Assembly (NCBI RefSeq): GCF_014201195.1
Contig: NZ_JACHDS010000001.1
Location: 1,364,001 to 1,428,000 of the forward strand
Reading direction: 5' to 3'
Source: Nocardiopsis mwathae
Lineage (GTDB): Bacteria; Actinomycetota; Actinomycetes; Streptosporangiales; Streptosporangiaceae
DNA: 64,000 nt
Part shown: positions 20,710 through 25,632 of the stretch, piece after piece
Position numbering within the stretch: position 1 is the stretch's first letter
Layout of the letters: every line of letters begins with the position of its first letter
Made by a program: the position numbers and the translations under genes
The notes under the pieces: model-generated
Told to the model about the DNA's origin: nothing
The model's database searches: none
The model's input: the letters and a program-made list of their open reading frames with translations, nothing else

Positions 20710-22473
20710 TTGATCCGCACGCACGACGCCGGTGCCCTGCGCGCCGAACATGCCGACGAGACCGTCGTCTTGGCCGGGTGGGTGGCACGCCGCCGGGACC
20801 ACGGCGGCGTCGTCTTCCTCGACCTGCGCGAAGCTTCCGGCGTGGTCCAGGTGGTGGTACGCGAGGACGACCTCGCCCATGACCTGCGTGCCGAGTACTG
20901 CCTCAAGGTGACCGGCAAGGTCCGCATCCGGCCTGAGGGCAACGAGAACCCCGAGATCGCCACGGGTGCGGTCGAGGTCGTCGCCGACGAGATCGAGGTG
21001 CTGAGCGAGGCGGCTCCGCTGCCGTTCCCGCTGGACGGCTCCCAGGAGATCTCGGAGGAGGCTCGGCTCCGCTATCGCTACCTCGACATCCGGCGTCCCG
21101 AGCGCGCCGGCGCGCTGCGCACGCGCTCTACCGCCACCTATGCGGTGCACGACGTGATGCGCGAGCATGGTTTCGTCAACATCGAGACACCGAACCTCAC
21201 GCGTTCGACGCCCGAGGGTGCGCGCGACTTCCTGGTACCGGTGCGGTTGCAGCCGGGCCATTGGTACGCGCTGCCGCAGTCGCCCCAGCTGTTCAAGCAA
21301 CTGCTGATGGTCGGCGGCATGGAGCGCTACTACCAGATCGCTCGTTGCTTCCGGGACGAGGACTTCCGTGCCGACCGGCAGCCGGAGTTCACCCAGATCG
21401 ACATCGAGATGAGCTTCGTCGACCAGGACGACGTCATCCAGGTGGGCGAGGAGCTCGTCGCGCGCCTGTGGAGCGAGGTACTGGGATACGAGGTCCCGCT
21501 GCCGCTGCCGCGCATGCCGTACTTCGAGGCCATGGACCGCTTCGGTTCGGACAAGCCCGACCTGCGCTTCGGTCAGGAGCTTACCGAGCTCACCGAGTAC
21601 TTCGCCGAAACCCCGTTCCGTGTCTTCCAGGCACCCTACGTCGGCGGCGTCGTCATGCCCGGCGGTGCGACCCAGACCCGCAAGGAGCTCGACGGCTGGC
21701 AGGACTGGGCGAAGGCACGCGGCGCCAAGGGCCTCGCCTACGTGCTGGTTCAGGAGGACGGCACGCTCGGCGGGCCGGTGGCCAAGAACCTGGCGGAAGA
21801 GGAGCGTGCCGGACTCGTCGGCGTCGTCGGCGCGAAGCCGGGCGACGCCGTGTTCTTCGCGGCCGGTGAGCGCAAAGCCTCGCAGGAGTTGCTCGGTGCC
21901 GCCCGCCTGGAGATCGGCCGTCGGCTCGGCCTCATCGACGAGTCTCAGTGGTCGTTCCTGTGGATCGTCGACGCCCCGATGTTCGAAGAGGACGGCGAAG
22001 GCGGCTGGACTTCGGTGCATCATCCCTTCACCGGGCCCAAGCCGGAGTGGGCGGACACCTTCCACACCGACCCGGGCAACGCCCTGGCCTATGCCTACGA
22101 CATGGTGTGCAACGGTTCGGAGATCGGTGGCGGCTCGATCCGTATCCACCGGGGCGAGGTCCAGCAGCGAGTCTTCGACGTTCTGGGCATCAGCAAGGCC
22201 GAAGCGGAATCGAAGTTCGGCTTCCTCCTGGAAGCTTTCAAGTTCGGGCCGCCCCCGCACGGCGGGATCGCCTTCGGGTGGGACCGGATCATCGCCCTGC
22301 TGACAGAGAGCGAGTCCATCCGCGACGTCATCGCATTCCCGAAGACCGCGTCGGGTGGCGACCCGCTCACCGGTGCTCCGACTCCGATCACCGTCTTCCA
22401 GCGCCGTGAGGCCGGAATCGACGCCGACCCGGAGACGGGTAAGGAGAAAGCGGAGGCGGAGCCGGCCGAGTAG
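20710..22473 (+). CDS. aspS: Aspartyl-tRNA synthetase
   Basis: 587 residues, bacterial type with OB-fold anticodon domain ([20 protein letters not shown]), class II core and GAD insertion. Motif 2 is [20 protein letters not shown] and motif 3 [13 protein letters not shown] start with GAAGGAG at about 8 nt. Visual inspection suggests more T/A third bases (GGT, CGT, TCT codons) than neighbouring genes; this is not quantified. It occupies the place where hisS commonly follows the MBL hydrolase. Confidence 0.95.
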
Positions 22474-22517
22474 GCGGCCGGTTCGTCGCCTTAGCCGAAC
22501 CGTGGCGGAGCGGAGGA

Positions 22518-22549
22518 GTGGGGTGGAGGCACGGGTGCCTCCACCCCAC
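22518..22549 (+). terminator. Terminator hairpin after aspS
   Basis: Perfect 14-bp stem (22518-22531 with 22536-22549) around a CGGG tetraloop, 45 nt after the aspS stop. Confidence 0.8.
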
Positions 22550-22568
22550 AGATGTCGTACCCCCGCCT

Positions 22569-22634
22569 CCGTGGATCTCGGGAGAACGGTTCGAATTCTC
22601 GCCGGAATTCGAACCGTTCTCCCGAGATCCACGG
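22569..22634. repeat. Long perfect hairpin, 30-bp arms with 6-nt loop
   Basis: Left arm 22569-22598 starts CCGTGGATCTCGGG; right arm 22605-22634 is its exact reverse complement; the loop is TCGCCG. It is the second of three hairpins between convergent aspS and the zinc-finger gene. Much longer than an ordinary terminator here. It could be a bidirectional terminator or the remnant of an inverted-repeat mobile element. Confidence 0.85.
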
Positions 22635-22707
22635 GCGAGGGCCCGGCGGGGGTTTCCGGTGAGATCTGGACGATGCCCTGTGAGCCGCGCGGGTGGACGC
22701 GTACTGT

Positions 22708-22728
22708 GGGGGCGGGGTTCCCGCCCCC
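22708..22728 (-). terminator. Hairpin after the minus-strand zinc-finger gene
   Basis: GGGGGCGGG-GTT-CCCGCCCCC, a 9-bp perfect stem located 37 bp beyond the stop of the gene at 22765-22905. Confidence 0.6.
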
Positions 22729-22764
22729 TGGGGTGGCTGATGTGCTGAGGGGTGGTGCGAAGGT

Positions 22765-22905
22765 CTACCTCTTCGCTGCGCCGCATTGCAGGCAGCAGAT
22801 GGTCTCACTGTCGGGGTTGCTGTGGCTGCACAGGCGGCAGGTCCAGTTGCGGATGATCAGGTGCGGTCGACTGATTCCCCTGGTGCGGGCTGTTGATTCG
22901 CACAT
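22765..22905 (-). CDS. 46-residue RanBP2-type zinc-finger protein
   Basis: The C-terminal half reads NWTCRLCSHSN, then PDSETICCLQCG, giving W-x-C-x2-C-x3-N-x7-C-x2-C. This is one residue longer than the classical RanBP2/NZF pattern W-x-C-x2-C-x3-N-x6-C-x2-C. Four Cys would bind one zinc; in eukaryotes such fingers bind RNA or ubiquitin, and the role in bacteria is unknown. The basic N-terminus could contact nucleic acid. ATG at 22905; the ribosome site is weak (AGGGA about 14 nt upstream). It is followed by a hairpin terminator. Confidence 0.65.
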   Translation of the reverse strand: MCESTARTRGISRPHLIIRNWTCRLCSHSNPDSETICCLQCGAAKR

Positions 22906-23382
22906 GAATGAATTGTAGATCCCTGAACCTTCGTAAAGATCGGTGCAATTTGGCCGGTTTCGGCATGTTTCGGTCGGCTGTGTTGTGGTGCGGGAGGGGC
23001 GCCCGCCGATCCGTGGTGATCACGGATCGCTCGTCGGGACCCGCGGGGGAGTGGAGGCTGAATGGCGGTCCTGTGCCGTAGCCTTGGTCGTGAGCAATGC
23101 GGGGCCATCGGGGGCCTGGTCACGTCGCAGTAACGATTGCGGAAAGATGCCCCCTCCTCCGCGGGTCGATTCGATGGGGTTTTTCCCTTATGACTGATTT
23201 TTGTGCAGTCGTTATGAAATGTCGTACAAGGTCGGAGGCGGGATCGGCGTACCGCGGGCGCATTGTGGGACGCGTCCGCCATCTGCCCTGACAGGCGGTC
23301 CTGTCGGTAAACTAAGCCGAATCGGAGGTCTCTGGGGAGAGCGTGCACTGGCGCGGGTGGAGACGTCCGGGACGACACAGGG
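22906..23382. promoter_or_regulatory. AT-richer divergent region upstream of the zinc-finger and phosphatase genes
   Basis: No credible coding frame. Inverted repeats: CGATCCGTG-N5-CACGGATCG at 23007-23029 and GACAGG-N4-CCTGTC at 23290-23305. The second lies immediately before TAAACT, a likely -10 of the phosphatase gene about 70 bp upstream of its start. Both look like operators. GC is visibly lower than in coding neighbours. Confidence 0.5.
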
Positions 23383-25632
23383 ATGATCGATTACGTGAAC
23401 GGCACAACCGGCTCAACCGGTGGCTTCGCCGGTTCCTCCGCAGTGCCCGGCGCCGACCCGGCCCGGTCGGGAGATCACGTCGGCGCGGCGTTCCGGCACG
23501 CCCCGATCGCCATGCTCGTCGCCGACAGCGGGGGACACATCCTGGAGGCGAACGGAGCGTTCGGCGCGGTCGCGGACCGGGCGCCGGCCTCGCTCCGCGG
23601 CCGGTGCTGGCCCGAACTGCTGGCGGAAGGGGACAGGGCGACCGCCTGGGACCTGCATCGCGACGCACTGTCCTCTGCGGGAAGCGGCGGGTCGCGCGTC
23701 CTGCGCCTGGACATCCCAGGAGGCGCGCCCCTGCGGATGGTCGTCGAACTCCGCGGACTCGCCTCACCGCACAGCTCGCAGCGCAGCCCGGGCGACACCG
23801 CGAACGGATCGGGTGACGGGGACGGGGACGGAAGCGCGCACGGCAGCGGCAACGGGAACGCGGCCGCATCCGGTGGATCCGCCGACCCCGCCCACTCCGT
23901 TCCCTCGGCACGGTCCGGTGACGGTGGCGGTGACACCCCCGCCGGTGCCGACATCGGCGGAGACGGCGATCCCACCGCCGTTGCCGTGCTGTTCCGCGAG
24001 CCGCTGCCCGACGAAGAGACCCTGCGCGTCATCACCGAGCTGCGCACCGAGAACTCCGGCGCCGTGCTGTGGACACTCGACCTGCGCACCGGGCGGCTCG
24101 GCGAGCTGTTCGGCCCCTCACCGCTGGGCCGCATGCTCAGCGACGACGCCCGCGATCTGGAGGACTGCCTGGCGCGCGTCCACCGCGACGACATCGCCCG
24201 CGTGCGCGACGCGCTGGAAGCATCCCACCAGGGCCGCGACTACGAGCAGCGGTTCCGCATGTTCGACCGGACCGGTGAGGAGCGCTCGCTGCACGCCCGC
24301 GCCCGCTTCGTCGACGGCGAGCGTCCCCGGCTGATCGGCATCATCGACGACGTCACCGAGCACGTGCAGCTGGTCCGCCGCCTCGCCGACCGGCGCAGAA
24401 TCGAGGCCGCGCAAGGGCGCCAGGTCACCGAACTGGCAGCGAAACTTGTCTCGGCCACCACCATCGACGAGGTCACCGGCCTCCTCACCGACGAGTTCGT
24501 GCCGATCTTCGGAGGCACCAGCGCGCACGTCATGCTCGTCGTCGACGGCGCCCTGCGGGCGTCCCCCGCCTCCAGTCGCAAGAGCGAAGCGATCGCGATG
24601 ATCGACGGCCGCGACGCCGCAGACACCGCCTACCCGATGGGCGCCGTCGTCCAGGACCGCCAGCCCCGCTTCTTCGAGAGCCGCGCCGAAGCGGTGGAAC
24701 GCTTCCCCGCGGCCGCGGAGATCCTGCACCACACGAGCGCGCAGTCCTGGGCCACGGTTCCGATCTTCGGCGACCGCCGGGTCGCCCTCGGCGTCTGGCA
24801 GGTCGCCTGGAACCAGCCCCACCACGCCACACCCGACGAGCGCGCGCTCATGCTCACCCTCGCCGGGCTGGCCGGGCAGGCGTTGCAGCGGGTCAGCCGC
24901 CAGCAGGCCGAGCTGGAGCTCGCCGACGCCATGCAGCGGCGCATGCTGCCGCCGCTGATCCCCGGGTTCGCCGCCCTCGACATCGCCGTCCGCTACCTGC
25001 CCGCCCGCGCCGGGTGGCGGGTCTGCGGCGACTTCTACGACGTCATCAAGCTCCCCGACGACAAGGTCGGCCTGGTCGTGGGGGATGTCCAGGGCCACGG
25101 TGTGGAGGCGGCGGCCGCGATGGGCCAGATCCGGGTGGCCTTTCGGGCCTACGCCACCAACCAGAGCGACCCCGGAACCGTCCTCGCCGAGACCAACCGC
25201 CTGCTCGGCGAGACCGGCGAGATCGTCTTCGCGACCTGCGGCTACCTCGTGCTCGACCTTGCCAGTGGCGAGATGCAGGCGGCCTGGGCAGGGCAGCCCC
25301 CGGCCGTGATCGGCACGGCCGACGGCTTCGAGCTGTGGGAACCGGAGACCGGCCCGCCCGTGGGCGTCGAGGCCGACGTCAAGTACCCGGTCTCGACACG
25401 GCGGCTGCGGGTCGGCGAGTGCCTGCTGGTGTGTTCCGACGGACTCGTCGAGAGCTCGGAGTGCACCATGGACGACGGTCTGGAGCAGGTGGGGGTCGTG
25501 CTGCGCGACCAGGCGGACAGCGTCGGCGTGCAGGGCATCGCGAGCGCTCTGACCGAGCTGGTCCCCGCGGGGCGCGGTGACGACATCGCCATCCTGGTGG
25601 TCCGGATGGCCGGGGCTGGCTCCCGCGACTAG
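23383..25632 (+). CDS. PAS-PAS-GAF-PP2C (SpoIIE/RsbU-type) serine phosphatase
   Basis: 749 residues, soluble. PAS-like domain about 33-128, a Gly/Ser/Asp/Asn-rich linker about 130-200 including GDGDGDGSAHGSGNGN, a second PAS 215-330, GAF 345-503 and PP2C 520-745. Metal-binding motifs are intact: GDFYDV (549-554), GDVQGHG (567-573), CSDGLVE, and GDDIAIL near the end. Such proteins dephosphorylate anti-sigma antagonists in response to a sensed signal. ATG at 23383; no sigma, RsbV or RsbW gene is adjacent, so partners must be elsewhere. Confidence 0.88.
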   Translation: MIDYVNGTTGSTGGFAGSSAVPGADPARSGDHVGAAFRHAPIAMLVADSGGHILEANGAFGAVADRAPASLRGRCWPELLAEGDRATAWDLHRDALSSAGSGGSRVLRLDIPGGAPLRMVVELRGLASPHSSQRSPGDTANGSGDGDGDGSAHGSGNGNAAASGGSADPAHSVPSARSGDGGGDTPAGADIGGDGDPTAVAVLFREPLPDEETLRVITELRTENSGAVLWTLDLRTGRLGELFGPSPLGRMLSDDARDLEDCLARVHRDDIARVRDALEASHQGRDYEQRFRMFDRTGEERSLHARARFVDGERPRLIGIIDDVTEHVQLVRRLADRRRIEAAQGRQVTELAAKLVSATTIDEVTGLLTDEFVPIFGGTSAHVMLVVDGALRASPASSRKSEAIAMIDGRDAADTAYPMGAVVQDRQPRFFESRAEAVERFPAAAEILHHTSAQSWATVPIFGDRRVALGVWQVAWNQPHHATPDERALMLTLAGLAGQALQRVSRQQAELELADAMQRRMLPPLIPGFAALDIAVRYLPARAGWRVCGDFYDVIKLPDDKVGLVVGDVQGHGVEAAAAMGQIRVAFRAYATNQSDPGTVLAETNRLLGETGEIVFATCGYLVLDLASGEMQAAWAGQPPAVIGTADGFELWEPETGPPVGVEADVKYPVSTRRLRVGECLLVCSDGLVESSECTMDDGLEQVGVVLRDQADSVGVQGIASALTELVPAGRGDDIAILVVRMAGAGSRD

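Follow-up and report, generated by a model that had tools for sequence, protein, structure and literature searches.

A probable zinc-finger micro-protein gene with a predicted RanBP2/NZF-like fold beside a SpoIIE phosphatase gene in Nocardiopsis and its relatives

A very short open reading frame between aspS and the gene of a signalling phosphatase in Nocardiopsis mwathae raises the question of whether it is a gene and, if so, what its product might do. The frame occupies positions 22765..22905 on the minus strand of the window (the whole stretch of 64,000 nucleotides analysed here). It runs from an ATG to a stop codon, and its 46-aa product contains the motif W-x-C-x2-C-x3-N-x7-C-x2-C, as a sequence-only reading had described. 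With either x6 or x7 allowed after the Asn, the motif is encoded once when all six frames of the 64 kb window are considered, and none of 150 third-order Markov resamples of the window contains it. Because the frame has orthologues, a constant length and start, and purifying selection on its finger, these comparisons make it very probably a real gene, and the proposal of a genuine, easily overlooked mini-gene with a RanBP2-like finger is borne out by the orthologues and by the predicted fold.

Homologues and the synonymous/nonsynonymous ratio were among the checks proposed by the sequence-only reading, and both speak for a protein. In 60 relatives, four matches were strong, one of them being the window itself (E 9.4e-29 to 1.1e-13), and the match after them stood at 0.005. 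When these four were aligned and used as query, 42 of 341 genomes of the family matched at E <= 0.01, 32 of them at E <= 1e-14. An exact degenerate DNA pattern likewise found the gene in 32 of 341 genomes, with no match for the backward control. Together with three divergent copies, orthologues are thus present in 35 of the 341 genomes. Counted by hand, the pattern-positive genera are five of 68: the window's own genus (2/2 genomes), g11 (one), g30 (6/6), g75 (22/40) and g76 (one). The divergent copies lie in the g75 genomes G141, G143 and G168 (E 3e-4 to 1e-3) and adjoin the same SpoIIE phosphatase gene. Names could be attached to eight of the ten loci of one search, namely three Streptomonospora, four Nocardiopsis and one MAG; by identity of sequence, the three Streptomonospora belong to g30, three of the four Nocardiopsis to g75, and N. 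trehalosi to g76. The 38 loci collected reduce to 29 distinct sequences (upstream plus coding), as eight genomes are present twice, from two collections, and G139 equals G150.

Candidates from further afield were set aside. Two matches from beyond the family, one from an uncultured bacterium (L032) and one from an Acidobacteriia MAG (L033), are non-orthologous: they lie in longer frames, and the sequence available around them contains neither of the two neighbouring genes. A third profile (A3), run against 394 genomes of the class with 18 candidates scored per genome, reached E <= 1e-3 in at least six genomes from other families. Three of these matches (L141, L143 and L008 of G055) sit in larger proteins, as reading of their sequences established, and the other three were rejected on frame length alone (open frames of 176-242 aa). 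A viral origin was dismissed as well: 50 IMG/VR stretches matched the DNA patterns and none encodes a relative.

Conservation is concentrated in the C-terminal part of the protein. The orthologues are 44-46 aa long at the 38 loci, the three divergent copies have 45 aa each, and all share one conserved ATG start. In 29 aligned proteins M1, W21, C23, L25, C26, N30, C38, C41 and G42 are invariant. When 27 distinct sequences of 46 codons are pooled (351 pairs), residues 20-46, the finger domain (22768..22848, minus strand), have a pN/pS of 0.254, versus 1.155 for residues 2-19 of the N-terminal segment (residues 1-19; 22849..22905, minus strand). For this finger DNA the ratio rises to 2.086 and 1.368 when codons are taken from the remaining two forward frames, so that purifying selection is confined to the finger frame. 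By this codon comparison, purifying selection acts on the C-terminal 27 residues and leaves the N-terminus free to vary. The basic N-terminus, which had been named as a feature of the protein, therefore does not stand as one, its basic character not being conserved across orthologues.

The spacing of the cysteines bears on which of them may hold a metal. An additional cysteine, C37, is found in 26 of 29 rows; the three divergent orthologues are without it and have the canonical N-x6-C-x2-C spacing. Because C37 is not in every row, C38 is the likely zinc ligand of the two, and we infer from the invariant positions that each finger would hold a single ion through C23, C26, C38 and C41. Could the C37-C38 pair instead make the protein a zinc or redox sensor, switching metal release or disulphide formation? 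Most orthologues keep C37 even though the finger consensus does without it, but the three that lack it retain a canonical finger, and no zinc or redox gene was seen among the frames read beside the finger, whose annotation was unsystematic. We give this explanation a slim chance.

The start codon offers a separate line of evidence. In the window, a −10-like box, TACAAT (22912..22917, minus strand), lies 6 nt 5′ of the ATG. All 15 loci outside g75 (10 distinct sequences) have TAnnnT 5-8 nt 5′ of the ATG and no Shine-Dalgarno match, while all 23 g75 loci (19 distinct sequences) have a Shine-Dalgarno sequence, scored by a pattern of our own definition, and no TAnnnT box; none of these 10 plus 19 upstream sequences has both. 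Two lineages thus appear to use different signals at the same ATG, with a leaderless-type start suggested outside g75. A consensus scan in the window, which also requires a −35 box, reported no sigma-70 site, including at TACAAT. The terminator that had been claimed for the gene was not recovered: no intrinsic terminator turned up on the gene's strand when 22440-23400 was scanned for the consensus, and the strong hairpin downstream proved to be one copy of a dispersed repeat. This palindrome (22562..22641), between aspS and the finger gene, has 37-nt arms that are 92% complementary and a 6-nt loop, and at least 28 further copies of it were counted by hand elsewhere in this genome, with 40 of 56 candidates scored. 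It is not specific to the finger gene and is ruled out as its own terminator; it is perhaps REP- or MITE-like.

These data weigh on the null explanation, that the frame arose by chance or that its DNA is conserved for another reason, such as a regulatory RNA or an overlapping gene. The frame is small, and it is gone from part of Nocardiopsis. Against this, selection acts at the protein level and in the finger frame only, length is constant, two lineages serve the same start with different signals, and no resample produced the motif. We regard this explanation as scarcely credible, and take the frame as a gene in what follows.

What kind of finger does the gene encode? AlphaFold2, run on 29 sequences, gave a mean pLDDT of 68.8, with 80-89 at residues 21-46 and less than 50 at residues 1-10. 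The best 10 solved matches from Foldseek are all RanBP2- or NZF-type fingers (probability 0.85-0.99, with E >= 0.23 and hence not significant), eight of these 10 superposing over 27-28 columns with an rmsd of 0.9-1.2 Angstrom. The best VIA-align Z was 3.9 and rows within 1 Z were tied, so that no single finger is singled out. By sequence profile the best solved matches are two chains of the archaeal protein ArnA (E 3.7e-5 and 6e-5), followed by rubredoxin pieces (from 0.0039), Nup153 (0.018) and Vps36 (0.035). The model thus predicts a zinc ribbon of RanBP2/NZF type.

Strict membership of the RanBP2 type is another matter. In the available text of PMC7154859 the consensus is W-x-C-x(2,4)-C-x3-N-x6-C-x2-C; the window protein has N-x7-C-x2-C and falls outside that spacing, whereas the three divergent orthologues agree with it. 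The window protein scores 8.2 bits and the orthologue L027 14.4 bits against the PF00641 gathering cut-off of 27, and PF00641 returned no row at E <= 1 for the orthologues L056 and L112. In a genome-wide PF00641 scan the window's finger fell short of E 0.1 and that of G001 reached 15.8 bits. A search of NCBIfam with the 46-aa window protein matched no family. Since neither the consensus nor the Pfam cut-off is reached, we call the finger RanBP2/NZF-like and keep it out of PF00641; of the earlier label, the likeness holds through the predicted fold and the strict type does not. With PF00641 fingers such as those of Nup153, RanBP2, TRABID and TAB2 it shares the predicted fold, the Trp, the Asn and the four Cys. 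It differs from them in a loop one residue longer, the extra Cys (26/29), its stand-alone form of 46 aa and its bacterial host, and the members tested are below the Pfam cut-off and without the RNA-contact residues considered below. Nor is the type of finger by itself a novelty in a bacterium. PF00641 matched at E <= 1e-3 in 19 of 338 genomes of the family, two of them above the cut-off and the window's finger not among the 19; of nine of these frames that were read, eight are larger frames. By these matches, RanBP2-like fingers as such already occur in bacterial proteins.

We then consider the ligand. The sequence-only reading had pointed to RNA or ubiquitin, the ligands of the eukaryotic family. 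According to the available portion of PMC6384913, some RanBP2-type fingers read GGU-type RNA, and the RNA binders carry an aromatic residue after the Asn together with a pair of Arg. All 29 rows follow the Asn with Pro or Ser and none with an aromatic residue (RBM5 has Phe), and Arg is found in none of the 29 at the two RNA-contact positions, Asn+3 and Asn+4 by our own mapping of the published numbering. Recognition of RNA is accordingly disfavoured, and an RNA ligand was rejected. A wider form of this explanation is an RNA- or ribosome-binding finger like that of ZRANB2 or eL40. The fold search does also return ZRANB2 and RBM5, along with ribosomal chains, among them 9qf4_Bg (eL40), and readers of RNA do exist in this class of finger, but the missing contact residues lead us to judge it distinctly unlikely. 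As for ubiquitin, NZF-type binders carry a Thr-Phe/Tyr dipeptide after the second Cys, and bacteria are to our knowledge generally without ubiquitin. The dipeptide is S-H in the window and T-Y in only two of 29 rows (L036 and L047), which does not fit the NZF position, and ubiquitin was set aside as a ligand.

A partner might be sought among the neighbours, of which the sequence-only reading had named two. The first, confirmed as a constant feature, is a divergent gene (23383..25632, plus strand) for a PAS-PAS-GAF-SpoIIE (PP2C-type) phosphatase (Pfam PF07228, PF08447, PF13185 and PF08448). At all 38 loci, which represent 29 distinct sequences, a PAS-GAF-SpoIIE Ser/Thr phosphatase gene starts less than 1 kb away, head to head with the finger gene. 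The second is the convergent aspS, for aspartyl-tRNA synthetase (20710..22473, plus strand; PF00152, PF01336 and PF02938). It adjoins the finger gene in the window as described, but it varies among relatives: the window-type AspRS is present at 16 of 38 loci, an AspRS about 45% identical at 15, and none at seven. By eye, two of those seven lie at a contig end (L029 and L042, one genome) and five show transposase-like or ABC-protein frames. With a divergent AspRS or none at 22 of 38 loci (two of the 22 being the contig ends), aspS was rejected as a functional partner. By this comparison the aspS link is weak, and it is the SpoIIE phosphatase gene that stays beside the finger gene throughout. 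As a separate observation, the divergent AspRS of the 15 loci has the same orientation as aspS (about 4170-5924 in L026, plus 14 others) and could possibly be a xenologous replacement; that of L026, the one we read, has what we take to be a proteobacterial look.

Constancy of a neighbour is not dependence on it. Among the 40 g75 genomes, 15 are without pattern or divergent copy; in 13 of these (all but G155 and G165) the 1.5 kb beside the phosphatase gene was inspected by cysteine pattern and tblastn, and no finger was found there. In G132 and G137 the flanks are 90-93% identical to those of G141 and the finger stretch is missing, which amounts to a deletion. A tree of the phosphatase was built from 38 rows and covers 30 of 40 g75 genomes; six changes are needed on it for the label 'none' and four for 'finger', so that the finger gene would be dispensable and either lost repeatedly or moved. 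These comparisons indicate that part of Nocardiopsis has lost it. Because the phosphatase gene is present in 40 of 40 g75 genomes and 15 of them show neither pattern nor divergent copy, the phosphatase does not need the finger, and the pattern of loss, as read from the genomes, weighs against an obligatory subunit. Moreover, the surrounding gene order is conserved anyway, so the adjacency of the two genes may be plain inheritance.

With these limits in mind, the reading that we favour, tentatively, is a zinc-stabilised protein-binding adaptor or docking peptide in the SpoIIE phosphatase pathway, the partner being deduced from gene linkage and precedent alone. The finger would bind one zinc ion, fold as a RanBP2/NZF-type ribbon and act as a small adaptor, its likeliest partner being the phosphatase itself or a pathway protein (its STAS-domain substrate or cognate anti-sigma kinase); it might in this way tune the output of an accessory partner switch. 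Speculatively, the vicinal C37 could add metal or redox sensitivity. The mode of action would resemble that of ArnA, whose finger by itself suffices to bind the phospho-regulated ArnB. In the available text of PMC12852372, that binding is reported and ArnA is placed in a Ser/Thr phosphorylation network, and the accessible part of PMC12143880 describes RsbU, a related phosphatase, as switched by a partner protein, RsbT. ArnA of Sulfolobus acidocaldarius (Saci_1210; PDB 8S05 and 5A8I) has W-x-C-x2-C-x3-N ... C-x2-C-G-A-x-K in common with the window protein. It differs in being archaeal, in its N-x6-C spacing and in its chain of 214-223 residues with an FHA domain, the finger alone being shared. 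We know of no SpoIIE phosphatase alongside ArnA. On the bacterial side, two orthologues touch a 642-position NCBIfam phosphatase model at E 0.55 and 1.1, a lead only. A stronger version, in which the stand-alone finger would be a dedicated regulatory subunit of a SpoIIE-type phosphatase, a eukaryotic-style docking finger supplied in trans to bacterial partner switching and one of several overlooked single-finger micro-proteins of actinomycetes, seems to us rather doubtful.

The divergent layout also admits a local transcription regulator like haloarchaeal Brz, which would control the SpoIIE promoter or other genes through DNA or the transcription machinery. The starts of finger and phosphatase matches are about 370-480 bp apart at 15 of 15 loci outside g75, and Brz controls the adjacent bop, with its finger residues required, according to the available portion of PMC2253796. 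However, E34 in the acidic loop after the Asn (26/29 rows) is poor for nucleic acid, a single 27-residue finger is small for specific DNA binding, and the SpoIIE-side flank is still 90-93% identical in the two finger-deleted genomes. We hold such a regulator to be unlikely. Brz of Halobacterium and the Haloferax micro-proteins (PMC6562870 and PMC11241148) are also very small with a single C4-type finger, but, as far as the available texts describe them, their fingers carry CPxCG-related motifs, and they are compared with the window's finger here by cysteine pattern. Small zinc finger proteins are rarer in bacteria, at 1.5% of annotated proteins under 100 aa, in the same part of PMC2253796.

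For the adaptor, a conserved gene beside a SpoIIE phosphatase gene supplies a small, deletable and testable candidate partner, and lets one ask whether bacterial Ser/Thr signalling proteins, too, are docking sites for RanBP2/NZF fingers. Work on such fingers as docking modules has covered eukaryotes and, with ArnA, archaea. No publication on this finger protein was found in the open-access literature searched by title and opening of the abstract, a scope that mostly excludes subscription papers.

Other small fingers were met in these genomes. L092 (G011) and L146 (G175) encode a second RanBP2-like micro-finger of about 40 aa with the motif WECSRCGYHNEDFRTKCR[IV]CG; L092 scores 26.9 bits with PF00641 against the cut-off of 27, and its neighbours in G011 are presumably sufU/sufT. 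L142 (G007; 1501-1605) and L006 (G019; 1501-1584) lie at unrelated loci and are single-finger frames of about 32-33 aa whose spacing is RanBP2-like. All four are, like the window protein, single RanBP2-like fingers from the same bacterial family (about 32-44 aa, starts set by eye), and differ from it in locus and in the canonical N-x6-C-x2-C; within 1.5 kb of L006, L092 and L142 no significant match to SpoIIE or aspS was seen. In L100, L103 (both from the window's genus), L145, L148 and L151, RanBP2-like fingers stand at the N-terminus of larger predicted proteins, which by eye also have a hydrophobic stretch, and L144 and L145 match above the PF00641 cut-off. L008, L093 and L095, from other actinobacteria, combine a zinc ribbon with a second, FHA-like domain, as we take it to be, so that a small zinc ribbon is again paired with phospho-signalling.
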